From IMG/VR virus record IMGVR_UViG_3300021440_000087, positions 1 to 32,341 of that record: a stretch of DNA of 32,341 nucleotides, one strand, 5' to 3'. How positions within the stretch are numbered: the first letter of the stretch is position 1; every line of letters begins with the position of its first letter. The translations under genes and the position numbers were made by a program. This document shows, one piece after another, positions 11,492 through 32,341 of this stretch. Origin of the DNA: a virus. The notes beneath the pieces were generated by a model. That model was not told where the DNA came from. It ran no database searches and saw nothing but the letters and a program-made list of their open reading frames with translations.

Positions 11492-12033
11492 AAGATAATA
11501 TTTCCTCTTTTTATTAGCTCAAAGAAACACTCGCTTTGGTCTTGTACATCGTTCATAGCGCGATGCTTTATCCCTGGTCTATCTTTTTGAAATAGCTCTT
11601 TGTATAGTTTGTCAAGCGACAAGCGGTATCCTCTTATATCATAAGATTTTACCACTGTGCAAATCTGTATAGGTGGCCAAGGGAACGCGCAAATTTGGTC
11701 AATCCTTAACAGCTCATTTGCAAGCATATCTCTATCAAAACCTAGGTTATGCCCTGTAGCATACTTACATCCTATAAAAAAGTCTGCTAAGTCTTTATAT
11801 ATCTCTACAAATGTTGGCGCATTTTTAACCGCTTCGTCGTTTATTCCTGTTATTTTTGTTACTATTTCTGGGATAGGTATCTCTGGGTTGATCATTGAAT
11901 GAAAGTTTGCAACGATATTGCCATCTAAATCAAATTTTCTGCAATATATTTCAGTAATCTTTGGTTGTTCTTTGAGCGGCGCTGCGTTTGGCTTAAGCAA
12001 CCCCGTTGTCTCTGTATCAATCGCGACGATCAT
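11488..12033 (-). CDS. DnaQ-like 3'-5' exonuclease (DEDD family, proofreading candidate)
   Basis: 181 residues. The start is ATG 12033, with GGAG 6-7 bases upstream; longer in-frame starts lie inside the previous gene and lack a binding site. Exo I motif DTETTG is at the very N-terminus, Exo II is GHNLGFDRDML, and Exo III is HRAMNDVQDQ (HxxxxD, DEDDh type). Such domains remove misincorporated nucleotides in trans for alpha-type polymerases. It is translationally linked through a 39-residue gene to the family C polymerase, which has a degenerate PHP domain, so a dedicated proofreading subunit is the natural reading. Confidence 0.9.
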   Translation of the reverse strand: MIVAIDTETTGLLKPNAAPLKEQPKITEIYCRKFDLDGNIVANFHSMINPEIPIPEIVTKITGINDEAVKNAPTFVEIYKDLADFFIGCKYATGHNLGFDRDMLANELLRIDQICAFPWPPIQICTVVKSYDIRGYRLSLDKLYKELFQKDRPGIKHRAMNDVQDQSECFFELIKRGNIIL

Positions 12034-12901
12034 ATTTTTCTCCATATTCAGCATCAAGCAAAAGTTCAAGTGTGTGGATGGCTTTTTTCAAATCCATTGC
12101 CTTGCCTTTGTCGCGATGGCGAGTAACGTATGCTATTACCGCTGATTCTGCTCCTTCTAGGTGGTTTTTGTGACAATAATCAAAAGGTTGAATAGCTAAC
12201 TTTGAATAATGATTCCCACCAATTTGAGTTTTCTTTGCATCATTCATTTTTAGTCCTTTTGGAAAATTACCAGTTTGAAAATCCCATGTAGCGTCGTCAT
12301 ATCTTTTTCGAATAAACTTTATGCAGTTTTCTTCTATCAATGCCAAGTTGTGTAACTTGCTATGGTTATCATACCCAATACTACCAGACTTGTGAGTTCT
12401 TTCAAGTGGTGATTGGCCAATAACCATAAATTTACCACCTGACTCTAATGCCTTAAATGCAAGTACAGATTCTTCTAGTCCATATTTTAAATTTTTAATG
12501 TCATTATGCCAATCAACACCTTCAAGTAACTTAGTTTTAATAAACAATCCTCGATTAGTCCCAATCATGCAGTTTTTAATCTCAAATAATTCACGAGGAT
12601 AGCGTGAACCAAATACATTTAAAACAGCAGGTTGTTGTTCTTCTAATATTTTTTCTACTCTCTTGTAATATTTAACACAGTCTTGATTCCAAATAAAGTC
12701 GTCGTCGCATTGCATTACATAGTCGCATTCCACCCTAATATTAGTTCTAAACATACACATATAAGGCTCATCATACCCACGAGTGTCAATAACATCTATA
12801 ACCCAGTTTGGGAAATTCATAGACATGTAATTATTAAATGATTGTATAAATACGCTTCGTCTGTCATAATAAAAACTTGGCACTAATAATAATATTTTCA
12901 T
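12017..12901 (-). CDS. Fusion: GT-A-like glycosyltransferase domain plus DUF3310 (gp1.7-like nucleotide kinase family)
   Basis: 294 residues. Residues 1-205 look like a GT-A glycosyltransferase: LLLVPSFYY, then YVMQCDDDFIW with a DxD-type metal motif (66-68), GSRYPRELFEI, a GTNRGLF block, GLEESVLAFKALESGG and ERTHKSGS. Residues 219-290 are DUF3310: KTQIGGNHYSKLAIQPFDY, NHLEGAESAVIAYVTRHRDK, DLKKAIHTLELLL. T7 gp1.7, which phosphorylates dTMP and dGMP, is usually placed in this family. An internal ATG at 12247 has AAGGA with good spacing, so a stand-alone kinase-like product may also be made. The ATG start overlaps the ThyX stop. The transferase substrate is unknown: a phage DNA base, a host surface sugar, or something else. 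Confidence 0.78.
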   Translation of the reverse strand: MKILLLVPSFYYDRRSVFIQSFNNYMSMNFPNWVIDVIDTRGYDEPYMCMFRTNIRVECDYVMQCDDDFIWNQDCVKYYKRVEKILEEQQPAVLNVFGSRYPRELFEIKNCMIGTNRGLFIKTKLLEGVDWHNDIKNLKYGLEESVLAFKALESGGKFMVIGQSPLERTHKSGSIGYDNHSKLHNLALIEENCIKFIRKRYDDATWDFQTGNFPKGLKMNDAKKTQIGGNHYSKLAIQPFDYCHKNHLEGAESAVIAYVTRHRDKGKAMDLKKAIHTLELLLDAEYGEKYDRRD

Positions 12902-13629
12902 TTTGCACCTGATGGGTCTGCTACGTGATTAGTTTGTTCCCAAGCATATTTTATTACGCATTTTTGAGTATCTGTAATTTGCACAGTATATTCTTGTACT
13001 GGGCATTCTGTGTATCTAGGGAAACAGCATATACCAGTTTGCACACAAGCTACGTTAATAAAAGGCTCTGCCCAAGGATGAACGTAAATTACAGCCGCTT
13101 TCATTGCCTTGAACACGTCTTGATACTCGCCAGAAGTTCTCACGCACAACCGAGTCAGAGCGGTATCGTGCAACGTGCGTAAATCAGTTTTGACAATTAT
13201 GTTTGTTAATATATCAGTTGGTAAACATCCTCTGGCATCTTGTATTGGAACGCCTTGTTCTATTTGTTCTTTATAACAAGCTAATGAAGTATAAACAGCG
13301 TCGTCATAAGATTCATTAAGACCAAGGTTGTATACACCACTTTCGCTTGCATCTACCGCTCGTAGTGATTCTTGTGCGTATGATTGCGTGCGAGTCCTAA
13401 CAAGCTGGTGAGTGAAGTTCCTGCTAACATTTTCTATCGAAAATATATAAGAAACAAATTCCCATGATGATTTGATAGTATCCTTGATTTTATCAAGTTC
13501 TTCCATTTTTCTTTCATATGGCCAATCGTAAATATCTTGTTTTCTTTTAACTCCTTTTAACCTAGTTCCTCTAGTGAATATTAAAAGTTCTAATGCATCT
13601 GGTTGATAATCAATCAATGTTACTTTCAT
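12898..13629 (-). CDS. thyX: Flavin-dependent thymidylate synthase ThyX
   Basis: 243 residues. The ThyX signature R-x-R-x7-S is present as RTR (78-80) TQSYAQE S (88), followed by LR. The second conserved block DARGCLPTDILTNIIVKTDLR and the C-terminal LCVRTSGEYQDVFKAM also fit. ThyX makes dTMP from dUMP with methylenetetrahydrofolate, FAD and NADPH. The central His of the usual RHR triad is Thr here, a deviation worth checking. The start overlaps the stop of the FAD protein by four bases and the gene is coupled to the DUF3310 fusion, which fits a nucleotide-supply operon feeding the polymerase. Confidence 0.9.
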   Translation of the reverse strand: MKVTLIDYQPDALELLIFTRGTRLKGVKRKQDIYDWPYERKMEELDKIKDTIKSSWEFVSYIFSIENVSRNFTHQLVRTRTQSYAQESLRAVDASESGVYNLGLNESYDDAVYTSLACYKEQIEQGVPIQDARGCLPTDILTNIIVKTDLRTLHDTALTRLCVRTSGEYQDVFKAMKAAVIYVHPWAEPFINVACVQTGICCFPRYTECPVQEYTVQITDTQKCVIKYAWEQTNHVADPSGAK

Positions 13630-14501
13630 TTTACCACCTTATCATATTCGTTTAAGTTAACCCACTCTTTTATCCTTAAAACATCGTTGTAAATATCGTC
13701 TAACTGTATGTTTCTCCATGTTGCGAATCTACCAAGGGAATATATGTTGTGTTCTTTCGTTAATTTATAGATAATTTTTTTTACAATGTCATTGTCAATA
13801 GTCGTAAGCTTTCCGTATTTTTGCTCATAATTTTCAATTACAGGAGTAACCCTAATCCCCATCAGACCGAAAGATGTCAATACTTGTTCAATATCTGATT
13901 TTATTATATTAAAACTTGATTCGATAATCAATTCGTTCCCTACTATAGATGCCCTGTACACAGCGGTAGATGTACCTGTGTAATAGTTTGTCATGTGGGC
14001 ATCGCAATTTGGAACTATAAATTTACTTATTAAAATTGTATTATATTCTAGTTTTGGTATTTCAATACCTAAATTAGAACATAACACATCAATTGGAAGT
14101 GTACTTATTATTGTGGAACTATGCTCTTTCATTAGATTAATATTATATCCAAAAAAAGGATTGCACATTTCAATTAATTTTTCATGCAAGTTGCTTGGCG
14201 CAATATATCTTTCCTCTGTGTCAAGATTACATATAGACCTGTGCGATACTTTTGAAGATACTTTTCTGGAGTATCTTGCTATGTAGTGTGGCGATAATTG
14301 CACATTGTGGTCGTTATGCCAAATGCCTTTATATACTTTTACTTTTTTGAAAGGTATACCAAGTGCTTTTGAAATTAAATCGTTTTTGAATCTTAAAATT
14401 GCTTGATGCTTTTTTATTTCTTTAAGTGGTTCATATACTTGTGCCCCTGGAATCATTAGCGATGCGATACATCCACTTAGGCCTGCACCTAAAATTATCA
14501 T
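13626..14501 (-). CDS. FAD/NAD(P)-binding oxidoreductase-like protein
   Basis: 291 residues. The N-terminus MIILGAGLSGCIAS is a GxGxxG Rossmann dinucleotide-binding motif. The C-terminal YSLGRFATWRNI resembles the FAD-contacting 'G-R' end of UDP-galactopyranose mutase-like and amine-oxidase-like flavoproteins. The middle (STLPIDVLCSNLG, TAVYRASIVGNELIIESS) fits the substrate domain of that fold. A reductase that serves ThyX, or a sugar-nucleotide enzyme working with the neighbouring glycosyltransferase, are both possible. ATG 14501 has GGGA 7 bases upstream. It lies just behind a terminator, so its operon either relies on read-through or has a promoter I could not identify. Confidence 0.7.
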   Translation of the reverse strand: MIILGAGLSGCIASLMIPGAQVYEPLKEIKKHQAILRFKNDLISKALGIPFKKVKVYKGIWHNDHNVQLSPHYIARYSRKVSSKVSHRSICNLDTEERYIAPSNLHEKLIEMCNPFFGYNINLMKEHSSTIISTLPIDVLCSNLGIEIPKLEYNTILISKFIVPNCDAHMTNYYTGTSTAVYRASIVGNELIIESSFNIIKSDIEQVLTSFGLMGIRVTPVIENYEQKYGKLTTIDNDIVKKIIYKLTKEHNIYSLGRFATWRNIQLDDIYNDVLRIKEWVNLNEYDKVVK

Positions 14502-14566: not shown

Positions 14567-15163
14567 TTAATACTTGGCTTTTATTTTTTGAACGAAATCA
14601 AATATACCAAGATGTTTGGCTCTGAACCGCTTTGTGTTTTCTGTGCCAACTTCATCAAGATAATCTGTGAACTGCTCAACTGTTGCATTTATGTTATCAA
14701 GAATCCACTTGTACATGTTGGTATCGAAATTTGAACGACCTTCGCCTGGTTCTTGTTTAGGTTTCTTGAAAAATTCTACTTCATTTTTCTTACACCACAT
14801 CCTAACAGATGTAGCGGCAGAGCGGTCGTTAGCATCAAGTGCTTCCATCACTTTTACCAATGCTTCGTCAAAAGTTGCCTCAACAGTCAAATCAAGACCA
14901 GAAAGCAACTTATCAAGGATTTCGCTCCTTTCTTCTTTACTCTTTGCAAAACCACATTCGACCATCAGCTGGTTAAAGTAACGGGCGACATTTGCAAACT
15001 TGGCACCAGCCATCAACATTGCCATTTTAACTGCATCTTCGTCAACATTTTCTTTTGCCATTTCTGCTTGAAAAGCAGCCTTGATAGCACCCATAGCAGG
15101 GTCAGATTTAGTGTCCTCTGTATCTTCTTGAGTTGATTCTGTATTTTCGGTATTTTTATCCAT
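14567..15163 (-). CDS. Acidic hypothetical protein with C-terminal 'GTxNxxRF' domain
   Basis: 198 residues, AGGAA 8 bases before ATG 15163. The first 25 residues are very acidic (NTENTESTQEDTEDTKSD) and probably disordered; the middle is helical (MAMLMAGAKFANVARYFNQL); basic FFKKPK follows. The last about 45 residues (TVEQFTDYLDEVGTENTKRF) match the end of the protein at 23686-24246 (TVDEMKAFINKIGTKNFIRF), so the two are paralogous at least there. It has its own promoter (15196-15224) and terminator (14521-14544), unusual within this leftward block, which suggests separate, possibly high expression. Function unknown; regulator or nucleic-acid-binding protein are guesses. Confidence 0.75.
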   Translation of the reverse strand: MDKNTENTESTQEDTEDTKSDPAMGAIKAAFQAEMAKENVDEDAVKMAMLMAGAKFANVARYFNQLMVECGFAKSKEERSEILDKLLSGLDLTVEATFDEALVKVMEALDANDRSAATSVRMWCKKNEVEFFKKPKQEPGEGRSNFDTNMYKWILDNINATVEQFTDYLDEVGTENTKRFRAKHLGIFDFVQKIKAKY

Positions 15164-15195: not shown

Positions 15196-15224
15196 AGTCT
15201 AGCAAAACTTTTACACCCTGTCAA
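15196..15224 (-). promoter_or_regulatory. Sigma70-type promoter for the 198-residue gene
   Basis: Leftward TTGACA (15224-15219), 17 bp, TAGACT (15201-15196), with TG one base before the -10 (extended). It overlaps the 3' end of the helicase gene and lies about 33 bp from ATG 15163. Confidence 0.65.
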
Positions 15225-16783
15225 TACTCATACTTTAAAACTTTCGAATATTTCGCGCTTGAATCTATTAAAATCCTGTTCGGATTTTTTAAATTGCCTA
15301 AAAAGCTATGTAAAAATTCATTACAGCATCGTAAATCAGTAGGGCTAGCGCCCCTAAAAGCTAATACGTTAACGGCTCTTGTACGTGCGTAGCCGGTATG
15401 ATTTAAACAGAAAAGCTCATTAAAAAACTGTATGCCGCTCAGATACGTGCATTTGATCGCTTGTATCTCACTAGGCAGATCAATCAGCTGATAAGAAACC
15501 GAGTCAACAGCGTACCATGCCCTATTCTCAGCAATAACCTCAATCCTAGAGCTAGTGTATTCAAGTTTAGTCTCAAAAACAAATTCATGCCCACACTCAT
15601 TACAAACTCTACAAGCAGGATAAGTTAATGATTCACACTCTGGGCAAGTTTTATATATTGGTTCGCCTATTGTCTTATCAAGTTTATATTTATCTTTTAC
15701 TTGTACGGCATTAATTGGGCCAAGTCTCTTAGTATTCCCAGCAAAGTCAAGAAAAACACAGAAATCTTTTCCAGGATATATGCGAGTGCCCCTGCCAGCA
15801 GATTGAACATGCAAAACTGGTGATTCAGTAGGGCGCAACATAACAATTAAATCAATACCAGGGTCATCATAACCAGTAGTAAGCATGTTTACGTTAACCA
15901 AAGCTGTAATATCACCTGATTTATGTGCATTAATTACCCAATCTTTATCAAAATCCATTTTAGAGTGCACAACACCAGCCTTAATGCCTTTTAATAACAA
16001 TGCCTCCGCTATGTGTTCGGCGTGTTTTATGTCAATCGCGAATATAAGCCACTTATTACATTTATATTGGTCAGCAATGTAAATAGTTTCCAATAATGCT
16101 GCTTCTGTTATTTCATCTTTATCTATCAAGGATGACATTTCTTTATCAATGAATTCACCACCTCTATGATGTAATCCAGAAGTATCAATATTTAATTGCG
16201 TGCTAGGCACTTTCAATCTACAAAGATAACCATCTTCAATAAGTTTATTGAAATTATCAACGCTAGTTAAATCATAAATTAAATCACTAAACAACGAAGT
16301 AGGCTTGCCATACATCAATCCACTAGATAAGCGGTAAGGCGTAGCAGTAAGTCCTAAGTATATCTTGCCTACGCTATTCAAAAATAGCCTGTACATAGAG
16401 TTATCTTCATTACTTATGCTATGACATTCATCAATTATAACTAGGCCTATATCATTAAATAATTCTGGTTTCTTATAGACTGATTTAATCCCCGCTATAG
16501 TCACATCTTTAACAATTCTTGAATCTAAGCCAGCTGAATATAACCCAATATTAGGCAATAATTCAGCTAGTTGTCGATAATCTTGTTGCAGTATTGATTC
16601 AGAGTGTGACAAAATCAACACCTTAGTTTTCCACTCAGTGTTAACAAACGCTGCAATCATTGCAATTACAAGGGACTTGCCAGTTCCTGTAGGCATAGCA
16701 ATAATACCATGCCTATCAGGACGCTGCATCATATAGTCAATCGCGCTGTTATACGCTTCAATTTGATATGGTCTTGGTTTCAT
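15221..16783 (-). CDS. Superfamily 2 DEAD/DEAH-type helicase with zinc ribbon
   Basis: 520 residues. Motif Q region RPYQIEAY (4-11), Walker A MPTGTGKS (30-37), DECH box (118-121), motif III GLTATPYR, then the second RecA fold with NVNMLTTGYDDPGIDLIV and motif VI QSAGRGTRIYPGK. A four-cysteine ribbon CPECESLTYPACRVCNEC near residue 400 resembles those of phage helicases that resemble the UvrB/type III restriction helicase branch. Likely role: unwinding or remodelling branched DNA in replication or recombination. It sits between the nuclease and the orphan at 14.6 kb; no ribosome binding site stands out before ATG 16783. Confidence 0.9.
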   Translation of the reverse strand: MKPRPYQIEAYNSAIDYMMQRPDRHGIIAMPTGTGKSLVIAMIAAFVNTEWKTKVLILSHSESILQQDYRQLAELLPNIGLYSAGLDSRIVKDVTIAGIKSVYKKPELFNDIGLVIIDECHSISNEDNSMYRLFLNSVGKIYLGLTATPYRLSSGLMYGKPTSLFSDLIYDLTSVDNFNKLIEDGYLCRLKVPSTQLNIDTSGLHHRGGEFIDKEMSSLIDKDEITEAALLETIYIADQYKCNKWLIFAIDIKHAEHIAEALLLKGIKAGVVHSKMDFDKDWVINAHKSGDITALVNVNMLTTGYDDPGIDLIVMLRPTESPVLHVQSAGRGTRIYPGKDFCVFLDFAGNTKRLGPINAVQVKDKYKLDKTIGEPIYKTCPECESLTYPACRVCNECGHEFVFETKLEYTSSRIEVIAENRAWYAVDSVSYQLIDLPSEIQAIKCTYLSGIQFFNELFCLNHTGYARTRAVNVLAFRGASPTDLRCCNEFLHSFLGNLKNPNRILIDSSAKYSKVLKYEY

Positions 16784-16805: not shown

Positions 16806-17624
16806 TTATAATACTTTGCATATTTTATATTTGTTGCATCCAATGCGTTGTTCATCTTGGATTAAATTTTTATTATGAAGCCTGCAATGCCACTTACCTT
16901 CCATTTCAATATCAACAAACTCGCACGTTCTACAATTAATATTTGGTACTGCTTGTTCATGACATACCGCTTTGAATGCACACCACTGGCACAAATAATA
17001 TTCTATATCTCCTATCTTGTCAGGTGGGAATTCACTCATTAATACACTATTAAACTTTCTATCAATGTCACTATAATATGTAGCGTCATACTCAACTAAC
17101 TCAATATAATATTCGCTTGTATTCTTGTTATAGCAAAGATATAAACAAAATCTTAAGCCAAGTTTTCCCATATACGCCTGCATTTGCGAATAATGAGTAG
17201 GTTTTTCTTTCTTTACACCTCGCTTAACAATAGCAGCCCAAGCTAGTGCATTTGATGTTTTAATCTCAAGCAACATCCTATCATTGCTATTGGGCAAGCA
17301 TATAATGCCATCAATATGCCCTAAAGCATGACCATAAGACCCTTCGACAGACAATTGTTCATCGGTAATAGTGAAGCCATGAGCAATTAAATCTTTTTTG
17401 ATTTCTGCTTCTAGTGTGTGCCCTAAATCAAAAATACGCTTTGTCTGCTTAGTAATCAAATCATCACTAGCCCAGCGAAAAGAATACCATAGCTTTCGTA
17501 AACAAGGTTCGCCGCTTGATGAATATCCTAGGTATCCTCTTTGGGTCTGTTTAATCATTCCTTCATTAAGAATATTGGCAATGTTCTGTCCAGCGGCACT
17601 ATTTTGCTTAGGAAGTATTGCCAT
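16806..17624 (-). CDS. PD-(D/E)XK nuclease, RecB/Cas4-like, with cysteine cluster
   Basis: 272 residues. GHIDG (102-106) and EIKTS (120-124) give the D...ExK active site, followed by YSQMQAYM (145-152, the Q-x-x-x-Y motif of RecB-like nucleases). Cys41 in SGEPCLRKLWYSFRW plus C-terminal cysteines (YYLCQWCAFKAVCH) fit the Fe-S binding arrangement of Cas4/AddB-type enzymes. A further group, CRTCEF...WHCRLH...GCNKYKIC, adds a zinc-ribbon-like tail. It probably makes or trims ends for the recombinase encoded upstream. Its ATG shares a base with the lipoprotein stop (TAATG), with AGAGAAG upstream. Confidence 0.88.
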   Translation of the reverse strand: MAILPKQNSAAGQNIANILNEGMIKQTQRGYLGYSSSGEPCLRKLWYSFRWASDDLITKQTKRIFDLGHTLEAEIKKDLIAHGFTITDEQLSVEGSYGHALGHIDGIICLPNSNDRMLLEIKTSNALAWAAIVKRGVKKEKPTHYSQMQAYMGKLGLRFCLYLCYNKNTSEYYIELVEYDATYYSDIDRKFNSVLMSEFPPDKIGDIEYYLCQWCAFKAVCHEQAVPNINCRTCEFVDIEMEGKWHCRLHNKNLIQDEQRIGCNKYKICKVL

Positions 17625-17893: not shown

Positions 17894-18166
17894 TCAACAA
17901 GTCAATCTCACGTTGCAATCGATTGTTTCTTCTAAGACTGCTCTAATATCAATCTCTGGTGCTTCTTCAAATTGCTCTGGTTTTATACTAAGCAAGCCCC
18001 ATTTTATAGAGCTATCCTCAGTGTAATTAGACTCATTAGTATGCGACCAGCCGCTTGTCTTAAAAGCTTTAGCTTCATTTATTAAATAAAGTATACTTTC
18101 TGCACTGATATACTTAGTATCTACTTCAAGTATGTTATTGTAGCTTAATTCGATATAAACTTTCAT
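17894..18166 (-). CDS. Hypothetical protein, 90 residues
   Basis: The start is ATG 18166, chosen over an in-frame ATG four codons earlier because GGAG lies 7 bases upstream of 18166. The protein begins MKVYIELSYNNILEVDTKY, then a helix and a Ser/Thr/Asn-rich loop (SGWSHTNESNYTEDSS), ending in IDIRAVLEETIDCNVRL. Mildly acidic, soluble, no recognised motif. The leader carries the sequence AAAGAGCGGCA seen also upstream of the lipoprotein gene, and a 7-bp hairpin separates it from the DUF669-like gene. Confidence 0.6.
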   Translation of the reverse strand: MKVYIELSYNNILEVDTKYISAESILYLINEAKAFKTSGWSHTNESNYTEDSSIKWGLLSIKPEQFEEAPEIDIRAVLEETIDCNVRLTC

Positions 18167-18226: not shown

Positions 18227-18658
18227 TTATTTCTTAGCGAATGGATTTGATTTAGGCTTAGAGCCATCAGCACTTGCTTTGCTAAACTTCTTAATGTCAG
18301 CACCAGGATAAGCATCGTCATCAGGACGCTTAACAACACTAATCATAAGCGGTATGTTTTTCAATTCGTCAGAGTCTACAACTTTAGCAGGGTCTTTGCC
18401 AATTGCATTGATAATCTTTTTCAATTGCCCATTAGCAATTTTAACTGCCATTTCATTCGGGTTTATAAGATTAAGATTACAAAAAACCAGAGAACCTTTC
18501 TGTGCGCCTTCAAGAATCTTAAAGTGCAAAGAAAGATATTCTCCATCACCGCTGTTTGTGGTTTTCATTTCTGTTTTAATGATTTCAGCAAGATAGTCTC
18601 CTGTTGGGCATATATCGTCTGATTCGTCTGTGCTAAAACTTGTTGGTAATTTTGCCAT
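18227..18658 (-). CDS. DUF669-like protein, probable ssDNA-binding/recombination accessory
   Basis: 143 residues with GDYLAEIIKTEMKTTNSGDG, YLSLHFKILEGAQKGSLVF, LNLINPNEMAVKIANGQLKKI and AIGKDPAKV, the order of conserved blocks in DUF669 phage proteins. These are OB-fold-like and usually lie next to Sak4 or similar recombinases, acting as an SSB-type partner; this is family knowledge, not shown here. The C-terminus is basic and Ser/Lys-rich (SKASADGSKPKSNPFAKK), unlike the acidic tail of classic SSB. The leader AGGAAATAAAA is nearly identical to that of the Sak4-like gene upstream, 52 bases away. Confidence 0.8.
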   Translation of the reverse strand: MAKLPTSFSTDESDDICPTGDYLAEIIKTEMKTTNSGDGEYLSLHFKILEGAQKGSLVFCNLNLINPNEMAVKIANGQLKKIINAIGKDPAKVVDSDELKNIPLMISVVKRPDDDAYPGADIKKFSKASADGSKPKSNPFAKK

Positions 18659-18710: not shown

Positions 18711-19379
18711 TCATTTTTTTACCCCTTTTATTTTATCGAATAATAATGTTAAGTCTGGTTCTTCAAACTCGTCTAGTTTACCGCTTCTATCTTTACATAC
18801 ATGGTTTATGTCGCCTTGTGTTTGCAAATATCGATATTTTATGCCATCTTTATCAACGCCAATTCGTAAACATAGCAACAAATCAAAGAAATAGGGTATG
18901 TTCATATTTAATTGTTGGCCTGGGAATGATGGCCTGTAGGCACATATGCCTGTATCTGCATCCTCTATCCTTGCTTGTTTGCTTACAAAATAAACATGCT
19001 TGTTTTCAATATCGCGAAAAGCACGTATCGCTGATAATAAATCATCAGCAAGTCTGCCATAAGCCTTGCGAGGGTCCTTCTCGTCCTGCTTATATTCAGC
19101 CAAGATAGTTTCGGCGATGTCACTAAGCGAATCTAGACATATTGTTTGATAATCTGAATCTATGCAATAGTCATATGCTTCAACTAATTCATCATATGAA
19201 TTAACCTTAATAACAGGTAAATCATGTCCAGCAAGTGGCAACAAACCGCTTTCAGATGATATGATAATAGGATTAGGAGCAGTAGCAATTAAAGAGGTCT
19301 TGCCAACACCTGCGTCTCCATAGACCATCATTTTAATAAATGATGTCTGCTCTTTTGTGCTTGTAATGTTAATTGCCAT
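18711..19379 (-). CDS. Sak4-like RecA-fold ATPase (single-strand annealing/recombination)
   Basis: 222 residues. Walker A GDAGVGKTSL (21-30), Walker B TICLDSLSD (about 79-87), KHVYFVSKQ and PSFPGQQLNMNIPYFFD match phage AAA_24/Sak4 proteins, which bind ssDNA and promote strand annealing with an SSB partner. The DUF669-like gene directly downstream fits that partnership. AAAGGAAAT precedes ATG 19379. A promoter-like TTGCAT, 16 bp, TAGTAT lies just upstream (19408-19435). Confidence 0.85.
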   Translation of the reverse strand: MAINITSTKEQTSFIKMMVYGDAGVGKTSLIATAPNPIIISSESGLLPLAGHDLPVIKVNSYDELVEAYDYCIDSDYQTICLDSLSDIAETILAEYKQDEKDPRKAYGRLADDLLSAIRAFRDIENKHVYFVSKQARIEDADTGICAYRPSFPGQQLNMNIPYFFDLLLCLRIGVDKDGIKYRYLQTQGDINHVCKDRSGKLDEFEEPDLTLLFDKIKGVKK

Positions 19380-19435: not shown

Positions 19436-20198
19436 ATTCTTCCAACATTTCGTCAGCAATTTCCCATAACTTCTGATTAATTTCAATATTCCTATCAATT
19501 TGTGTGATTGGTCTCGTTTTGCCTTTTAAACCGCTTTCAGATTCACAACCAATACCGCCTTTTAAGATGTTTTCCTGTATAACGTTGAAAACAGTCCAAA
19601 GGTCCCTAGCGGTATCATAAGAGCGGCGAGGTTCCAATAATAACGAGCTGTCGATATTCCGATCATTATATACAGTCAATTTCATCAGTTCAGCGACATA
19701 CAACGCTGAGTCATGTGTTAATTGCACCGCTTGCATAGCTTCACTTCTCTTTACAGTTTCAAGGCTAAGTGTAATTGTGTTTTCCAAGCCTTTGTTAACG
19801 CTATCTAATGTTAAGGAGTCGTGTTTCTCGCTATATCCACCATTATCAACAAAGGCAATAAGTCCATTAGAGCATACCAAACGAAAAATGCCACTATAAA
19901 GTGAAAGGCGAGATTTGCCATTGTGCGAGTTAGTCATAACCAGCTCACTAATGCCGTTTTTATTTTTACTATCTAGTTGTTCAGAATGACGAAATCGAAC
20001 CATGTGTTTGCCCACGTCAGCATCAATAGTATTAAAGGATTGTGTAGCCGATACAGGGAAATATCCTTGTTTCTCGAATTCCTGAATAATATTAAAAGAA
20101 TTAATAAAAGTATATCTATCTGATAAGTGTTCCGCTTCGTGGGCCGCAAATGCTGCTGGCACTATTATGCGTAGTTGGTCATAGTCTAGGGTTTTCAT
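19428..20198 (-). CDS. DUF932-type phage/plasmid protein
   Basis: 256 residues. The start is ATG 20198: GAGGAA lies 7 bases upstream and itself overlaps the alternative ATG at 20210. YFPVSATQSFNTIDADVGKHMVRFRH, ELVMTNSHNGKSRLSLYSGIFRLVCSNGLIAF and the later helical region correspond to the DUF932 family, widespread in phages and plasmids, often near recombination genes and of unknown biochemical function. It is the first gene of the leftward early operon behind a good sigma70 promoter (20251-20279). Confidence 0.82.
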   Translation of the reverse strand: MKTLDYDQLRIIVPAAFAAHEAEHLSDRYTFINSFNIIQEFEKQGYFPVSATQSFNTIDADVGKHMVRFRHSEQLDSKNKNGISELVMTNSHNGKSRLSLYSGIFRLVCSNGLIAFVDNGGYSEKHDSLTLDSVNKGLENTITLSLETVKRSEAMQAVQLTHDSALYVAELMKLTVYNDRNIDSSLLLEPRRSYDTARDLWTVFNVIQENILKGGIGCESESGLKGKTRPITQIDRNIEINQKLWEIADEMLEEFA

Positions 20199-22764: not shown

Positions 22765-23103
22765 TTTGTTTTGTATTTGTTCTGTTTTATATATTTGTTC
22801 TGGTTTTTTAAAATTTGTTCTGTGTTTGTTCTATTTCATTAAGTAAAATCGGGGAATTAAGTAAAATGATTTACTCGAGTTTTCTTTTATAAATCATAAA
22901 GTTAGGTGCAAAAAGTAATTAAGTAAAAAAAACCCCCCTGTGCGCGGGTGAGAGGGTGACCAGAACAAATCCAGAACATGACGATATGCGCAATTACTTA
23001 ATTACTTAATATCTCACTAAAGGGTAAATCCTCTATTTAAAAACAACAATTTACGTCAAGTAATCGTTAAGTATTTAGATTACTTGATTACTTAATCGAA
23101 AAA
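22765..23103 (+). repeat. Iteron-rich non-coding segment, candidate replication origin
   Basis: 339 bp without a gene. Left part: TTTGTTCTG-type 9-mers at 22765 (one mismatch), 22776, 22794, 22814 and 22825 (last base A), with two pairs 11 bp apart. Their inverse CAGAACAAA/CAGAACATG occurs at 22961 and 22972, again 11 bp apart. Second family: TTAAGTAA at 22839, 22857, 22919 and its inverse TTACTTAA at 22994, 23002, 23088, plus degenerate copies near 23059-23087. A C6 run (22933-22938) and GC-rich tract 22933-22963 lie in the middle. Direct and inverted iterons in AT-rich DNA between the primase-helicase and RusA fit an origin; an operator array is the alternative. Confidence 0.65.
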
Positions 23104-23121
23104 ATGCTTACTGGACTAAAA

Positions 23122-23514: not shown

Positions 23515-23530
23515 AATCTATAGGGGTACA

Positions 23531-23651
23531 AGGCGCGAAAACGCCTAGCCCTAGGCTACCCTACCTCATAGCGGTAAAACGGGCTTAAATCGCCGTATTT
23601 TGATAGCGATTCGCTATTACAGGCAAAAGAAAGCCCGAATAAATCGGGCTT
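23531..23651. terminator. Cluster of hairpins between convergent genes, with a leftward terminator
   Basis: AAGCCCGA (23631-23638) and TCGGGCTT (23644-23651) form an 8-bp stem with a 5-base loop. Leftward it is followed by TCTTTTGCC, so it ends the leftward gene 23686-24246. Further left are AGGCG/CGCCT (23531-23546), TAGCC/GGCTA (23546-23558) and the near-perfect palindrome ATAGCGATTCGCTAT (23603-23617 approximately), which may serve the rightward RusA transcript. A TTG/TGT microsatellite lies at about 23657-23672. Confidence 0.7.
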
Positions 23652-23685
23652 AACATATTGTTGTTGTTGTTGTTTAAAAATTAAC

Positions 23686-24246
23686 TCATTTGTTATACAT
23701 TGCATGCACTTTGTTAAACATTTCGCCTCGTGCTATTAAATGCGAAGTAAATCTAATGAAGTTTTTAGTACCGATTTTATTAATGAAAGCTTTCATTTCG
23801 TCAACTGTGCGCACTTTTTCTGCACAGAACGCGTTAAACTTATCATCTAAGCTGTCACCGCGTGCACCTGTGCGTGTAACTTTGACATCAAGTAAAGTAA
23901 TAATTGTCTGAAGTATTGCTTTATCGCGAATCTTAAAAAGATCTCGGCAATACATTTTAAGCGTGTTGCCCCTAATGCCGCTATCAATTAAGCGGCGCGC
24001 TTCTATTATTTGTTCGTCATTTAGATAGTCTTGCAGTGTTTTATCCTTAGATTGTTCAGGTTTTGCACTTTGTTCATATTGTTTAGATAACTTAACCTTT
24101 CTTGCAAGCGCATTATTCAATTGCTCAGCAGTAAAAGGACAACCGTTGTCGCTTTTAGCTTTCGCTTGTTCACGTGTTAGTCCTTCGATCGTTGTCAAAT
24201 ATTTGCGATAGATTGCGCCTAATGCTTGTTCTTTAGTAGTGTTCAT
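23686..24246 (-). CDS. Hypothetical protein paralogous at its C-terminus to the one at 14.6 kb
   Basis: 186 residues. ATG 24246 has CAGGAA about 8 bases upstream. Helical and mostly basic (EGLTREQAKAKSDNGCPF, LNNALARKVKLSKQYEQ), then DEQIIEARRLIDSGIRGNTLKMYCRDLF, which could be a helix-turn-helix-like region. The last about 45 residues (TVDEMKAFINKIGTKNFIRF) align with the end of the 198-residue protein at 14567-15163. Both genes have their own promoter and a strong terminator. Function not recognised; a DNA-binding regulator or replication accessory is conceivable. Confidence 0.75.
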   Translation of the reverse strand: MNTTKEQALGAIYRKYLTTIEGLTREQAKAKSDNGCPFTAEQLNNALARKVKLSKQYEQSAKPEQSKDKTLQDYLNDEQIIEARRLIDSGIRGNTLKMYCRDLFKIRDKAILQTIITLLDVKVTRTGARGDSLDDKFNAFCAEKVRTVDEMKAFINKIGTKNFIRFTSHLIARGEMFNKVHAMYNK

Positions 24247-24267
24247 TGTTTAGTTCCTGTGTTTGTG

Positions 24268-24432
24268 TTAATGTTGTTCGTCAAATGCGTCTTTATATAA
24301 ATCGTAGTAATCAGCTTCACTAATTACAATCACACATAAAGCGGTTTCACAGTTATCAATTGTATCGAGCAGTGTATCTTGTGAACAATAAATTATCATG
24401 CCGTTTTCGTCGATTACTTTATAGTAGTTCAT
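24268..24432 (-). CDS. 54-residue acidic hypothetical protein
   Basis: ATG 24432, preceded by AACACAGGAACTAAT; almost the same leader (AACACAGGAACTAAAC) precedes the next gene at 24246. The peptide MNYYKVIDENGMIIYCS has the 'Y-x-V-x-x-x-x-G-x-I' hairpin of many small phage proteins, then an acidic helix (EADYYDLYKDAFDEQ). Too small for a function call, but a strong binding site, a promoter at 24487-24515 and codon use like its neighbours support it. Confidence 0.65.
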   Translation of the reverse strand: MNYYKVIDENGMIIYCSQDTLLDTIDNCETALCVIVISEADYYDLYKDAFDEQH

Positions 24433-24486
24433 ATTAGTTCCTGTGTTAAGTGTTTAAGTTAGCAGTAAAACATTTACTGTGAACAT

Positions 24487-24515
24487 ATTGTGCACTAAGT
24501 TTTACACAATGTCAA
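24487..24515 (-). promoter_or_regulatory. Leftward promoter for the two small genes at 23.7-24.4 kb
   Basis: Leftward TTGACA (24515-24510), 17 bp, CACAAT (24492-24487). The weak -10 coincides with the CACAATATG motif (24492-24484) also found twice in the other divergent region at 20.2-20.3 kb, suggesting a controlled promoter. Confidence 0.55.
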
Positions 24516-24540
24516 GTGTTTATTGCAATAGTTTTGAATT

Positions 24541-24676
24541 AATAAGGTGAAGTGAGAGAACCAGCGCATCAAGCGGGAAACCATGAAGGTGGGTGGGGGG
24601 GGCTTTTTGAAGCTAGTGCCTTACACCAATCACCTCACGCAAATCCCAAAAAAAAATTTTTCAAAAAAAAATTTTT
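24541..24676. repeat. G-run and twin A9T5 tracts upstream of the late promoter
   Basis: A G-rich stretch GGTGGG-T-G8 at about 24588-24602 is followed after 45 bp by two copies of nine A plus five T (24648-24661 and 24663-24676), separated by one C, period 15 bp. The A-tracts abut the -35 at 24681 and could act as bent DNA or an UP element. This gene-free stretch next to the terminase small subunit is also a natural place for a packaging signal; nothing else was recognised in 24541-24680. Confidence 0.6.
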
Positions 24677-24680
24677 ATTC

Positions 24681-24710
24681 TTGACAAAGCACCCCATTTC
24701 GTGTTAATTT
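24681..24710 (+). promoter_or_regulatory. Late promoter upstream of the terminase genes
   Basis: TTGACA (24681-24686), 18 bp, TAATTT (24705-24710), with TG two bases before the -10. Start near 24717, only about 27 bp before ATG 24744. Directly preceded by A-tracts and followed by an operator-like repeat pair, so probably regulated. Confidence 0.65.
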
Positions 24711-24719
24711 GCTCCTAAC

Positions 24720-24739
24720 TAGAACAAACACAGAACAAA
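24720..24739 (+). promoter_or_regulatory. Operator-like pair of AGAACAAA repeats
   Basis: TAGAACAAA (24720-24728) and CAGAACAAA (24731-24739) are 11 bp apart, one helical turn. The same 9-mer with the same 11-bp spacing occurs inverted and direct in the candidate origin region (22765-22833, 22961-22980). Located at the predicted transcription start of the late operon. Confidence 0.55.
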
Positions 24740-24743
24740 TAAA

Positions 24744-25136
24744 ATGGCAATCGCAAGCAAAGGTATTTACAGAGAAATTGATCTGAATACAATGCAATAC
24801 TTTGACATTATTACTTTAAATGAAGTCGAGTGTATGGCAGCGGGTCTAGAACCAGAGGAAGTTTTAGCTTACTATGGCTTAACAATGCCAGAAGTCGAAG
24901 CGTCAAAACAAGATTACTTCTACTTTTGCAGGGCATACAATAAAGGTCGCACAGAAGCAAAGCGGAAAGCGGTTCAATCTTTGTTTCAATCAATGGGCGG
25001 TCAGAAGGGCAAAGAGTCTAGTATATGCTATCTGAAACATTTTGGCTCTGATATCTGGAAGAAAAGTGAGGAGTCTGATGGAAATGATGATAATTTTAAA
25101 TTCACTGTAACTTTGCCTATGAAAACAAGTTTCTAG
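24744..25136 (+). CDS. Terminase small subunit (candidate)
   Basis: 130 residues, ending one base before the large subunit gene. LNEVECMAAGLEPEEVLAYYGLTMPEVE is a helix-turn-helix-like start, followed by RTEAKRKAVQSLFQSM and KGKESSICYLKHFGSDIW, the repeated-helix pattern 'A-x-x-S-L-x-x-x-A...A-x-x-x-x-L-K' found in phage small terminases. It would bind the packaging site and recruit the large subunit. The C-terminus FKFTVTLP is typical of the last strand. Identification rests on pattern and on the neighbouring large subunit. No clear GGAGG is visible; the AGAACAAA repeat lies where the binding site would be. Confidence 0.75.
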   Translation: MAIASKGIYREIDLNTMQYFDIITLNEVECMAAGLEPEEVLAYYGLTMPEVEASKQDYFYFCRAYNKGRTEAKRKAVQSLFQSMGGQKGKESSICYLKHFGSDIWKKSEESDGNDDNFKFTVTLPMKTSF

Positions 25137-25137
25137 G

Positions 25138-26559
25138 ATGGTAAAAGAGATTAATTATATCGCTAATCCAACAGGAGCGTTATTCCATAATGACGATAGC
25201 ATGGTTCGTGCTATTATGGGCCCGTTTGGAAGCGGTAAATCTGTCGCATGTGTCGTTGAGCTCTTATTAAGAGCGCACCAACAAATGCCAGATGCAAATG
25301 GCATTAGGCGCACACGTTGGGTTATTATCAGGAACACATATAGAGAACTCCTAGATACCACTATGGAGACATTTTTCGAGTGGATTCCTAAGTCAGCTGG
25401 AGAGTACCAAGCGGGAAACATGAAGTTCATAATGCGCCATAAGCTTGATGATGGTACCAGACTCGAAGCGGAGTTTATTTTTCGTGCCTTAGATAAGCCA
25501 GATGACGTCAAAAAACTTTTATCCTTAGAGATAACTGGCGCTTTTCTTAATGAAGTTCGCGAGATTCCTCGTGTTATTGCTGATGCGGTAAGCGGTCGTC
25601 TTAGGTTCCCTAAGACTGTTAAAAAGGATGGAAAAAAAGTTTATGGCGCAACATGGAGAGGAGTCATAATGGATACTAACCCACCTGATTCTGACCATTG
25701 GTTCTATAAAATATTTGAAGAAGAAAAACCAGAAGGATACAAACTGTTCAAGCAGCCTTCTGGTATTTCACATAACGCTGAAAATATGAATAATCTGGAA
25801 GATACATATTATACTGATATGATGCGTGGTAAAACAAAGCAATGGATTGATGTCTATGTTCATGGATCTTATGGCTTTGTATCAGATGGATCTCCTGTTT
25901 ATCCTGAGTACAATGATGACTTACACTATACAGATTCACCAATTAATTTATCAGCAAGATGGACTCTATACGTTGGTATAGACTTTGGCCTAACACCAGC
26001 AGCGGTAATTGGTGTTAAACAGCCTTCTGGCCAGATTATCATTATAGATGAACTTGTCACATTTAATATGGGAGCGACATCATTTGGTAAACTTCTTCAT
26101 GAAAAGCTCGGTTCGCACAAATATTCTATATTCTCAAACATAGAGATATATGGAGACCCTGCTGGTGAACAGCGCGCCCAGACAGATGAAATGACACCTT
26201 TCCTAATTCTTGCCAACAATGGCCTTGATGTCTGGCCAACTTATACGAACGATTTTACAATTCGCAGAGAAGCAGTAGCAAATTCATTAACTACACTTGA
26301 TTTTACTGGTAAACCTTCTCTTATGATTGCCTCTGGTGCACCTATGTTTCGTAAAGCCATGGGTGGAGGATATAAATACAAAAGATTATATGTCTCAAAT
26401 GAAGACAGATTCAAAGAAGTCCCAGACAAAAATTCATATTCACACGTAGCAGAAGCGGGACAATATCTAGTTCTTGGTGCTATTGGCTCATCTAATACAA
26501 TAGGTGGATCTAATCATAAAAAATTGGATTATTCACGTACATTAAGAGGAATAAGGTAG
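25138..26559 (+). CDS. terL: Terminase large subunit
   Basis: 473 residues. ATPase: Walker A GPFGSGKS (28-35), IIRNTYREL (63-71), Walker B-like ITGAFLNEV (132-140) with catalytic Glu, then MDTNPPDSDHWFY (178-190). Nuclease (RNase H fold): YVGIDFGLTPAAV (278-290) with the first metal Asp, IIIDEL and EIYGDPAG. This motor cuts and pumps DNA into the procapsid. Motifs and the portal next door fit podovirus-like (T7/P22 neighbourhood) enzymes. Length is somewhat shorter than T7 gp19 (586). Confidence 0.93.
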   Translation: MVKEINYIANPTGALFHNDDSMVRAIMGPFGSGKSVACVVELLLRAHQQMPDANGIRRTRWVIIRNTYRELLDTTMETFFEWIPKSAGEYQAGNMKFIMRHKLDDGTRLEAEFIFRALDKPDDVKKLLSLEITGAFLNEVREIPRVIADAVSGRLRFPKTVKKDGKKVYGATWRGVIMDTNPPDSDHWFYKIFEEEKPEGYKLFKQPSGISHNAENMNNLEDTYYTDMMRGKTKQWIDVYVHGSYGFVSDGSPVYPEYNDDLHYTDSPINLSARWTLYVGIDFGLTPAAVIGVKQPSGQIIIIDELVTFNMGATSFGKLLHEKLGSHKYSIFSNIEIYGDPAGEQRAQTDEMTPFLILANNGLDVWPTYTNDFTIRREAVANSLTTLDFTGKPSLMIASGAPMFRKAMGGGYKYKRLYVSNEDRFKEVPDKNSYSHVAEAGQYLVLGAIGSSNTIGGSNHKKLDYSRTLRGIR

Positions 26560-26566: not shown

Positions 26567-28729
26567 ATGAAACAAAAAATTGATGATGCCTTTGTTCTTT
26601 CTGTAATTAATAATGAGATAGAGCAAACACTATCGTTTTCTCCGAATAACTTTTCAAGCGGCACCTCTATTGACATAGAGACCCCGCTTAATTATTACCT
26701 TGGTAAACCTGATGGCACTGAGGTTGAGGGCCGTTCACAGGTTACCTCCACAGACGTCGCAGACTGTATCGAGTGGATTATGCCTTCTGTAATGGAAGCT
26801 TTCCTTGGCTCAGCTGATTGTGTTTCATTCGACCCTATTAATCCTGAAGATGAAGAACAAGCGGAGCTGGAAACAGAGTACGTCTATGACGTTTTAATGA
26901 AGAAAAATGATGGGTTTGTTATTCTTCATCAAATGACAAAAGATGCACTTCTACAAAACAATGGTATTAGCAAAGTCTACTACACTAAAGAAGAAAAAGT
27001 TGAAACTGTTTCTTATTCTGGTCTTACGCAAGAACAGCTACATTTATTGGTAAACACAAAGAAAGACATCGATATTTTCTCTTTAAAAGAAGATGTAACC
27101 GACTTTGGCACTTTTTATGATGTTCAGTTTAAAAACACTTGCACCTATGGTAAAATAAATGTTGAGTCTGTACCACTAGAAAACATAAAAGTTAATTCAG
27201 ACCACAATTCTATTAATCTGACAAATGCTCGATTTGTTTGTCATGAAATGGTCAAAACTTACACTGACCTTATCAATTTAGGTATACCTGAAAAAACTAT
27301 AAAAGACTTGCCTTTTGCTAATAGCTATCGCAATTCGTTTAGACAAGAAGCTCAGAACGAGTCTGTTTTAAGCTCTCGTAGCTCTATTGATATGACTATG
27401 CAGGAATACGACTTGCAAGAGTCTTACTTGTACATGGACTACAATAATGATGGCATTGCTGAATATGTCAAAGTCACTACAGTAGGCGAAGGTACACCAA
27501 CACACCTTATTTCTGTTGAGCCTCTTCCTGATGGCTCTCCTTGGGTTGGCTGTACTGCTATTTTGATGTCTCATAAGTTTAGAGGCCTATCTATTTATGA
27601 TAGAGTAAAGGAAATACAAGATCAATCAACAGCGGTATTGCGCTCCACTTTAGACAATTTCTATCTTCAAAATAATCAAGAAAAAGAAGTTGTGCAAGCT
27701 CTTGTTGTTGATATGGACGAATTGCTTACATCTACACCTGGTGGCATTAAGCGTGTTAAGCAAGCTGGTGCTATCAACCCTATCCCTGTACAAGCTTTTA
27801 CAGACTCTCCTATTCTGCTAATGCGGTACTTAGCCGAAATGAAAGCAGGGCGTACGGGCGTTTCTGCTGATGGCCCTTCTGCGCCTCAGAACATTGGTGA
27901 CAGAGTAGGTTCACAAGGCGTTGCACAGTTGATGACTGCTAAAGAAGCGCTTTCTGGTCTCATTGTTCGTGTTTTGGCCGAAACTGGTCTTAAGCCTATT
28001 TATATAAAAATTAGAGATTTAGCACATAAGCATATCGATACTATTGAAGACTACAAATTTAAAGGCCGTTGGGTTCAAGTTAACCCTTCTGAGTGGATTC
28101 CTAGAAGCTTAACTACTGTAAAAGTAGGTTTAGGCGCTGGTAATAAGCAAGAAAAGCTTGCCGCAATTGGTCAATTACAAAGTATACAAGCCACGCTTGC
28201 TAGTTCGCCATTTACTTATTTGTTGGACGATACTCGTATTTACAACACAATTAACGAGTTTTGTAAGCTTTCTGGTCTTCATTCTGCTTATAAGTATGTG
28301 CTAGACCCGCAGTCTGATGTTGCAAAGCAGCAAAAACAAATGCAACAACAATCACAAGCGGAAGCGAGTGCTAAAGCTGAGCAGGTACAAGTGGCTCAGA
28401 TGCAGATGGAGGCATCTTTGGCGCAAGCTGAGCTCGGCAAAGCGGAAGCTATGCAGCAAAGTGTTAGGTACAAAGCGGAAGCTGAGGCTAATAAGCAAAA
28501 GCTTGACTTGGCTAAACATCAATACGAAGCTAAACTAGCTATTATTGAACAACAGTATGAGCAAATGAAAATATTGGCAGATGATGCTAATAAGAGTGCT
28601 GATATGGAGCTTCGTCATAAAGCTATGGATGTTGATGTGTTTAAGACGCTTACTACAGTCAATGCACAAAAAGATATTGCATTGATTAATGCTAGCTCAA
28701 AAGAAAACAAACCTGGTGAAGCAGCATGA
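26567..28729 (+). CDS. Portal protein
   Basis: 720 residues, 7 bases after the terminase stop. PLNYYLGKPDGTEVEGRSQVTSTDVADCIEWIMPSVMEAF is the typical N-terminal start of P22/SU10-type portals. Later come LYMDYNNDGIAEYVKVTTVGE, DRVKEIQDQSTAVLRSTLDN and SADGPSAPQNIGDRVGSQGVAQLM. The last about 130 residues (QQKQMQQQSQAEASAKAEQV and onward) are a long Gln/Ala/Glu-rich coiled coil like the barrel of P22-type portals. It forms the dodecameric DNA channel and packaging motor dock. The stop overlaps the next start by four bases (ATGA). Confidence 0.93.
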   Translation: MKQKIDDAFVLSVINNEIEQTLSFSPNNFSSGTSIDIETPLNYYLGKPDGTEVEGRSQVTSTDVADCIEWIMPSVMEAFLGSADCVSFDPINPEDEEQAELETEYVYDVLMKKNDGFVILHQMTKDALLQNNGISKVYYTKEEKVETVSYSGLTQEQLHLLVNTKKDIDIFSLKEDVTDFGTFYDVQFKNTCTYGKINVESVPLENIKVNSDHNSINLTNARFVCHEMVKTYTDLINLGIPEKTIKDLPFANSYRNSFRQEAQNESVLSSRSSIDMTMQEYDLQESYLYMDYNNDGIAEYVKVTTVGEGTPTHLISVEPLPDGSPWVGCTAILMSHKFRGLSIYDRVKEIQDQSTAVLRSTLDNFYLQNNQEKEVVQALVVDMDELLTSTPGGIKRVKQAGAINPIPVQAFTDSPILLMRYLAEMKAGRTGVSADGPSAPQNIGDRVGSQGVAQLMTAKEALSGLIVRVLAETGLKPIYIKIRDLAHKHIDTIEDYKFKGRWVQVNPSEWIPRSLTTVKVGLGAGNKQEKLAAIGQLQSIQATLASSPFTYLLDDTRIYNTINEFCKLSGLHSAYKYVLDPQSDVAKQQKQMQQQSQAEASAKAEQVQVAQMQMEASLAQAELGKAEAMQQSVRYKAEAEANKQKLDLAKHQYEAKLAIIEQQYEQMKILADDANKSADMELRHKAMDVDVFKTLTTVNAQKDIALINASSKENKPGEAA

Positions 28730-31176: not shown

Positions 31177-32163
31177 ATGAATCTAGGATTTAGCTCACTT
31201 AGCGAATCTCCATTAAGCACCCTAACTACTGTAGGGTCGTCTAATAATGGTAATGCGAGTGCTAGTCTATTTTCAGTCACTTTGTCTGGAGCATCTGGAA
31301 ATGCTAGTGGTAGTGCTAGTGCATCTGGTGCAGGATTCGAAGTACAACTAACTGGTAGTAGTGGTTCTGCGTCTACTGCTACTAATGGTAATGCAAGCGG
31401 CGCAGGATTTAGCGTACAGCTTACTGGCAGTAGTGGTAGCGCTTCTGGAACTACTAATGGTTCCGCTACTGGCTCTGGCTTTAATGTACAGATAACAAGT
31501 GCTAATGGTACAGCATCTACTTCGGCTAATGGTAATGCAAGTGCGGCAGGGTTTGAAGTACAGCTAACAGGTGCAAGCGGTAATGCTTCTACAGGTGTAA
31601 ATGGGAGCGCTACAGGCTCAGGGTTTAATATACAAATAACAGGAATCAGCGGGACTGCTTCTAGTAGTGGAAGTGCAAGTGGTGCTGGTTTTAATATACA
31701 AATCACTGGTGCTAATGGCAATGCGTTTACAAACTTAAATGGCAATGCGTCTGGTTCTGGTTTTGGCATATTGATAACAGGCAGTAATGGTACTGCCTCA
31801 GATGGTTCAGGAATACAACAAGACGCTAAAGGAATAAGCGGTAAGAAACATGTTACTTATGTAAAGCGTGAAAAACAGCAAGAAGTAATAAAACTGAGAC
31901 CTGAGGAAATAGACCAACAGGTTTATAATCTATTATTTAATGAAGCAAAAGAGGTAATCAAAGATGCAAACATTAAGACTTCTAGCGTTGACGTTCTTGC
32001 TGATTCCGTGGTGTCTAATGTTATTGATAAGTTTAGTGAGATTCAAGCCGCTGTATCTCGAGAACAAGCGTTAGAAGAAGCTCGTTTAAATGCGCAAAGA
32101 ATTATTGAGCAGTATTTAGAGATGCTTCGAAGAGAAGACGAAGAAATTTTATTGTTATTATAG
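31177..32163 (+). CDS. Repeat-bearing fibre-like protein with C-terminal coiled coil
   Basis: 328 residues, starting one base after the adhesin. Residues about 24-210 are tandem repeats with a Gly-Phe (or Leu-Phe) step: Phe at 32, 54, 78, 102, 126, 150, 172 and 196, i.e. mostly 24-residue units of the type NGNASGAGF-x-VQLTG-x-SGSAST. Two flavours alternate (ASGAGF-VQLTG and ATGSGFN-IQIT). A basic linker (GKKHVTYVKREKQQEVIK) leads to a charged helical C-terminus (EALEEARLNAQRIIEQYL-like). It probably forms a beta-rich trimeric shaft with a coiled-coil base. Attachment site in the virion unknown. Confidence 0.75.
   Translation: MNLGFSSLSESPLSTLTTVGSSNNGNASASLFSVTLSGASGNASGSASASGAGFEVQLTGSSGSASTATNGNASGAGFSVQLTGSSGSASGTTNGSATGSGFNVQITSANGTASTSANGNASAAGFEVQLTGASGNASTGVNGSATGSGFNIQITGISGTASSSGSASGAGFNIQITGANGNAFTNLNGNASGSGFGILITGSNGTASDGSGIQQDAKGISGKKHVTYVKREKQQEVIKLRPEEIDQQVYNLLFNEAKEVIKDANIKTSSVDVLADSVVSNVIDKFSEIQAAVSREQALEEARLNAQRIIEQYLEMLRREDEEILLLL
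31246..31806 (+). repeat. 72-bp tandem coding repeats
   Basis: Seven to eight units encode the 24-residue repeats (two units shortened to 22 residues). At DNA level they diverge by synonymous and conservative changes, with recurring GGTAATGC and GGTTCTGG-like blocks, so expansion or contraction by recombination is possible. Confidence 0.75.
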
Positions 32164-32172
32164 GAGACTGAT

Positions 32173-32319
32173 GTGGAATTAGAAGAAGCTTTGTGCGAAC
32201 TTCATGAGACTGGAGGTGTACTCCGTAGAAAAGCCTGGGAGTCAGATATAGGTATTTCTCTTGAAGATGCTATTGCTAGTGATTGGGAAGTTGTTGATTA
32301 TTCAGAGGATGATGAATAG
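32173..32319 (+). CDS. 48-residue protein resembling a minimal Tad2/DUF2829-type domain
   Basis: GTG 32173 with AGGAG six bases upstream; ends TAG 32317-32319. The peptide MELEEALCELHETGGVLRRKAW ... ISLEDAIASDWEVV has the pattern 'EAL-x-x-L...G-x-x-x-R-x-x-W...A-x-D-W-E-V' of short phage proteins in the DUF2829 family, whose member Tad2 sequesters Thoeris signalling nucleotides. Here the middle strands are largely missing, so binding activity is doubtful. Acidic tail (DYSEDDE). The family relation is by pattern, moderate to low certainty; that it is a gene is more certain. Confidence 0.6.
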   Translation: MELEEALCELHETGGVLRRKAWESDIGISLEDAIASDWEVVDYSEDDE

Positions 32320-32341
32320 TGTCGCTTTCATCTAAAAATGA
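32319..32341 (+). CDS. Possible start of the next gene, cut by the window end
   Basis: A GTG sharing a base with the preceding TAG (TAGTG) opens a frame MSLSSKN that runs off the window. GAGGA lies about 11 bases upstream. Too short to judge; included because coupled starts are the rule here. Confidence 0.3.

Follow-up and report, generated by a model that had tools for sequence, protein, structure and literature searches.

We analysed the hexamer AAGCGG (CCGCTT on the complementary strand) in virus record IMGVR_UViG_3300021440_000087, a phage sequence of 32,341 bases that IMG/VR classes as linear and that is taken here at its full length (the window). AAGCGG is best explained as a strand-specific DNA signal kept for the phage's own replication module. 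We slightly favour the reading that AAGCGG, with its core AGCGG, marks recognition sites of the phage's own archaeo-eukaryotic primase (AEP) type primase-helicase, which is encoded at 20437-22764 on the plus strand and has a RepB_primase N-terminal domain and a phrog_3022-type helicase part.

Excess of AAGCGG in the window

Words were counted on both strands and compared with Markov models of increasing order. AAGCGG occurred 56 times, 32 times on the plus strand and 24 times on the minus strand (as CCGCTT), against expectations of 8.5, 10.7, 11.7, 24.0 and 45.9 copies at orders 0, 1, 2, 3 and 4, respectively. A preliminary description of this DNA had estimated about 55 copies where chance would give 7-8 and had proposed a third-order model as a check; the count bears out the estimate, and the excess stands at the third order. 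At each of the orders 0-3 AAGCGG ranked first among 1,991 non-palindromic hexamers. The order-4 model absorbs the excess because the core AGCGG is itself enriched 3-fold (106 copies vs 33 expected), with A favoured on its 5' side and T or C on its 3' side. The word is both over-represented and asymmetric, as is a Chi site.

By word count, the plus-strand copies lie at 3635-3640, 3959-3964, 4303-4308, 8571-8576, 9437-9442, 9530-9535, 10053-10058, 10847-10852, 11621-11626, 16329-16334, 18347-18352, 21753-21758, 23223-23228, 23465-23470, 23990-23995, 24339-24344, 24571-24576, 24960-24972 (two copies, starting at 24960 and 24967), 25230-25235, 25409-25414, 25466-25471, 25590-25595, 26453-26458, 26656-26661, 26859-26864, 28356-28361, 28440-28445, 28473-28478, 31395-31400, 31575-31580 and 31836-31841. 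The minus-strand copies lie at 1549-1554, 4880-4885, 5126-5131, 7003-7008, 8762-8767, 9227-9232, 11829-11834, 13095-13100, 14627-14632, 16967-16972, 17512-17517, 18051-18056, 18781-18786, 19246-19251, 19531-19536, 19727-19732, 20132-20137, 20550-20555, 21671-21676, 21884-21889, 22253-22258, 22451-22456, 22704-22709 and 26684-26689.

As a second null, synonymous codons were shuffled while the proteins and codon usage were kept. Genes held 52 copies (35 sense and 17 antisense) as compared to 12 under this codon null, a 4.3-fold excess that was present in all six strand and phase classes, with 18 of the 35 sense copies in the NAA-GCG-G phase. Conservation was assessed in G001, the closest relative of the window (82% nucleotide identity in the alignment), where AAGCGG was intact at 26 of 39 window sites as compared to 31% of 299 anagram hexamers (Fisher p 2e-5). 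The enrichment of AAGCGG is confirmed as a real signal selected at the DNA level, for which codon use and composition are insufficient. The Markov and codon nulls together with the conservation in G001 support the selected DNA-level word at the heart of the preliminary description, which had seen in it a polar oligomer of the replication or recombination kind with the primase among the candidates.

Distribution and layout of the motif among phages

The window encodes a terminase, portal, ligase, DnaE polymerase, DnaQ-type exonuclease, ThyX, RadD-like helicase, Cas4-type exonuclease, DUF669 protein, Sak4, primase-helicase and RusA, and because of this terminase-to-RusA gene set it was grouped with phages of ~40 kilobases (kb) such as Vibrio phage vB_ValP_VA-RY-3 (RY3, MW900438) and Cronobacter phage vB_CsaP_Ss1 (Ss1, KM058087). 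The AGCGG clade was delimited by relatives of the DnaE-type polymerase (8673-11426, minus strand). AGCGG was enriched in the window, G001, G008, L051, G005, RY3, PVA7 and Ss1, and in further DnaE relatives (L122-L125 and L127) the top hexamer found de novo was AGCGGA or GCGGAA. Enrichment was missing in G002, G003, G004, G006 and G007, which have the terminase (56-59% identical), portal and ligase in common with the window and not the replication module. The motif tracks the module of DnaE, DnaQ (11488-12069, minus strand), helicase, Cas4, Sak4, primase and RusA, and since relatives with only the terminase, portal and ligase are without it, we tie it to replication and recombination rather than to packaging. 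A packaging signal is ruled out, as terminase and portal also occur in motif-free phages.

The base that follows the core differs between subclades. AGCGGT and AGCGGC were enriched in the window, G001 and G008 (AGCGGG too in the window and G001), with AGCGGA barely so at 1.2-1.5x. AGCGGA was enriched 4.3-6.8x in RY3, Ss1, G005 and PVA7 and 3.6x in L051, and AGCGGT was not enriched there. The motif is a property of the phage clade and not of the host, being AAGCGG or AGCGG[T/C] in the subclade of the window and AGCGGA in the Vibrio and Cronobacter podoviruses. Other words were seen in some relatives. TAGCAG was weakly enriched in place of AGCGG in G017 and G018 (L110-L113), and L047 (G014), which has terminase, primase and recombination genes in common, carried 55 copies of CTTGGG vs 12.5 expected instead of AGCGG.

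The arrangement of sites was quantified using a layout scan, in which all hexamers were scored for even spacing per strand independently of composition. Among 96 codon-shuffled genomes used as the null, the best-scoring hexamer reached 3.88 at the 95% point and no more than 4.34; on many phages of the wider set the scan covered the first 40 kb only. GCGGAA/AGCGGA ranked first in RY3, Ss1 and G005, scoring ~5.0 in RY3 and 4.0 in Ss1 (both above 3.88) and ~3.5 in G005, which is below the 95% level. AGCGGA was spaced per strand more evenly than under random placement in RY3, Ss1, G005 and G019, and its orientation alternated above chance in RY3, Ss1 and G005. Combining six genomes gave p 3.6e-9 for even spacing; for alternation the combined value was 1.6e-5. 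Taken singly, PVA7 and G020 showed no even AGCGGA spacing, and even spacing was not found for TTGGT in G002, G003, G006 and G007 or for GTGGA in G010.

Unrelated phages with NrS-1-type primases showed an AGCGGA-like layout with TGTGGG or TGTGGTTA. The top words of the scan were TGTGGG/GTGGGC in Kakheti25, IME_AB3, R3, phiAxp-1, RcMotherGoose, FtMidnight, Birtae, Eidolon, Kmi2C and yarpen, TGTGGT with TGGTTA in Seurat and CAjan, TGTGGT in NP1 and CTGTGG in RHph_Y17, and weaker spaced GTGG words were detected in VpKK5, BcepGomr and Me-ZS1. No hexamer rose above the layout null in T7, PaP3, MSW-3, pKp383, phi105, phiSP119-3 and PYS40. GTGG itself was at 0.2x expectation in Kakheti25 and RcMotherGoose, and most of its remaining copies were the spaced TGTGGG. 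A separate depletion was observed for GAGG, with 0 of 76-102 expected copies in coding sequence on both strands in Kakheti25, RcMotherGoose and R3 (L074-L075, L084-L085 and L080-L081) and near absence in Eidolon and FtMidnight. GAGCGG had 0 copies vs 8-17 expected in Kakheti25, R3, IME_AB3 and RcMotherGoose, with AAGCGG at normal levels there.

Candidate readers of the motif

The primases of the GTGG-motif phages match the NrS-1-type family. Those of Kmi2C and Seurat match NrS-1 primase chains (E 4e-27 and 6e-8) and the NrS-1 HBD family, Kmi2C below the family cut-off. The NrS-1 primase-polymerase recognises 5'-GTGG-3' and 5'-TTTGGTTA-3' (PMC8718748). The window primase gene matches RepB_primase (PF16793, E 4e-9) and, weakly, a PrimPol AEP domain (E 0.0035). 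When motif was set against primase N-terminal class, GTGG went with the NrS-1 type, AGCGGA with the RY3 type and AAGCGG[T/C] with the RepB type of the window. We favour primase sites because the GTGG words agree with the NrS-1 specificity and because a change of motif class tends to go with a change of primase N-terminal class, with helicase, Cas4 and Sak4 staying in place. AGCGG would then be the template site where the primase-helicase starts primers, and whichever strand serves as template for lagging-strand synthesis would have to offer a copy at intervals of a few hundred bases to ~2 kb. With the primase as reader in the window, the spacing of sites would set the length of the Okazaki fragments.

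The wider proposition, to which we give about an even chance, is that many double-stranded DNA phages with AEP primase-helicases carry primase start sites as a per-strand ruler, made of a lineage-specific word (AGCGGA, TGTGGG or TGTGGTTA) that is evenly spaced and alternating, with strays purged in some. If so, primer sites would form a ruler kept by selection on both strands of phage genomes, the reverse of the situation in model phages, whose primase sites of 3-4 bases are frequent. Primase specificity and lagging-strand spacing would be readable straight from a sequence, and the site of an uncharacterised phage primase could be deduced from its genome alone. The predicted sites are AGCGGA for RY3 and Ss1, TGTGGG for Kakheti25 and Kmi2C and TGTGGTTA for Seurat and CAjan, and the layout scan offers a composition-free way to detect such signals. 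The open-licence literature searched yielded no account of phage primase motifs at even spacing.

Several observations weigh against recognition by the primase. The sites in the window and G001 are enriched and not evenly spaced. G017 and G018 carry an RY3-type primase and the full module, yet show almost no AGCGG enrichment, and MSW-3, pKp383, phi105 and phiSP119-3, with an NrS-1-like primase and the rest of the module lacking, have no evenly spaced motif. The AGCGG core is common to phages with RepB-type primases (window, G008) and with the other AEP-like type (RY3, Ss1, G005), only the following base differing between them (T/C vs A). Profile comparison detected no homology between the RepB-type and RY3-type N-terminal domains, and structure models of both types were poor (predicted local distance difference test, pLDDT, ~43). 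For the shared core, either the C-terminal part that the two types have in common helps recognition, or a new domain adapted to old sites, or the reader is another protein. In G022 (L224-L225) the primase at 22781-25090 joins a RepB-type AEP domain to the helix-bundle region of the RY3 type, a predicted domain mix pointing to domain shuffling.

The main rival reading, less probable but to be taken seriously, is a phage-encoded Chi-like signal. Here the RadD-like superfamily 2 helicase (15221-16783, minus strand) and the Cas4-domain exonuclease (phrog_1990; 16806-17624, minus strand) would process DNA ends, switch at AGCGG in an orientation-specific manner and hand single-stranded DNA to the Sak4-like annealing ATPase (18711-19379, minus strand), so that the phage would encode a recombination signal for its own enzymes. 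Nearly all spaced-motif phages have the helicase-Cas4-DUF669-Sak4 set (DUF669 protein at 18227-18658, minus strand in the window), the NrS-1-like primases without the full set come without a spaced motif, and an enzyme that reads in one direction from either end would likewise call for sites on both strands. AGCGG is also the motif to which AddAB of B. subtilis responds, and in S. aureus the Chi sequence is GAAGCGG (PMC8022716, PMC4824097). No AddAB gene was identified in the window phage, in which the RadD-like helicase and Cas4-type nuclease are present. However, Cas4 was not detected in Axp1 or NP1, both with a spaced motif, and the motif varies (GTGG, AGCGG, CTTGGG) while helicase, Cas4 and Sak4 are conserved. 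Surplus Chi sites should also do no harm, yet GTGG is purged outside its spaced copies.

It is far less probable that another protein of the module reads the motif, either RusA (23104-23514, plus strand), by cutting Holliday junctions 5' of CC in CCGCT, or a DNA-organising protein. E. coli RusA prefers CC, and RusA is encoded in the window, G001, G005, RY3 and Ss1, but also in the non-enriched G017 and G018. It was not detected in the GTGG-motif phages, and a resolvase would not need per-strand regularity.

A shade less probable still, and very unlikely in our view, is the replication-polarity oligomer with an origin near 22.9 kb that the preliminary description had proposed from a change of orientation at this point. 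Its regional counts of AAGCGG vs CCGCTT were reproduced (20 vs 1 from 23.2 kb to the end, 3 vs 17 at 11.8-22.7 kb and 6 vs 2 at 8.5-11.7 kb), and the order of signs in the window formed 16 runs vs 28.5 expected at random (p 0.001). The flip also coincides with AT-rich intergenic repeats in the gap between primase and rusA (22764-23096; ATTTGTTCTG direct and inverted, ATTAAGTAA/TTACTTAAT inverted), a candidate origin, operator or control region. The claim that the flip is independent of gene direction did not hold, as region-wise synonymous-codon shuffles reproduced the antisense share in each block: 2 of 19 in the right arm vs an expected share of 0.17, 3 of 14 at 11.4-20.3 kb vs 0.15, 4 of 6 in dnaE vs 0.44 and, as the sole weak residue, 6 of 7 in the primase gene vs 0.51 (P 0.07). 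AGCGG without the preceding A (n=50) showed no flip, with 10 plus and 8 minus copies at 11.7-20.3 kb, and polarity was absent in RY3, Ss1, G005 and PVA7, where orientations mostly alternate. Because the regional shuffles fit, the copies without A stay unflipped and the relatives are non-polar, we attribute the flip mostly to gene direction and local codon context, and replication polarity was rejected as its main cause.

The least credible reading, a by-product of codon usage or of host signals (host Chi or a DNA uptake sequence), has sense copies outnumbering antisense ones in its favour and is refuted by the codon-preserving shuffle, by the conservation in G001 and by the motif being common to Cronobacter and Vibrio phages while further phages from these host groups, Vibrio and E. 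coli phages among them, show no enrichment. For the Cronobacter and Vibrio host groups the reported or predicted Chi is GCTGGTGG (PMC8022716), and the full uptake sequence ACAAGCGGT has only 2 copies in the window, so both sources raised in the preliminary description are excluded.

Elsewhere in the window, the C-terminal third of the product of 12017-12901 matches phage nucleotide-kinase-type families, and its N-terminal part resembles a glycosyltransferase by eye.

Comparison with known systems

The Pasteurellaceae uptake sequence ACAAGCGGT contains AAGCGG but differs in its two full copies in the window and in the span of the motif clade over Vibrio and Cronobacter phages. The AddAB Chi sites (AGCGG in B. 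subtilis, GAAGCGG in S. aureus) have the same 5-base core and are likewise asymmetric, over-represented and strand-specific, whereas the motif described here is specific to phage lineages whose hosts have another Chi, and in the relatives it alternates with even spacing. The site of the NrS-1 primase-polymerase is likewise a template motif that is short, asymmetric and rich in G and has a Y-GG core (PMC8718748), and TGTGGG or TGTGGTTA is evenly spaced in genomes that encode relatives of this primase; the core here is AGCGG, and the window primase is of the RepB type. The N-terminal domain of the window primase matches the Pfam family RepB_primase, which likens it to the RepB' primase of RSF1010. 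RepB' acts at ssiA and ssiB (PMC4538821), two special plasmid sites, as compared to the dozens of short motifs in the window.

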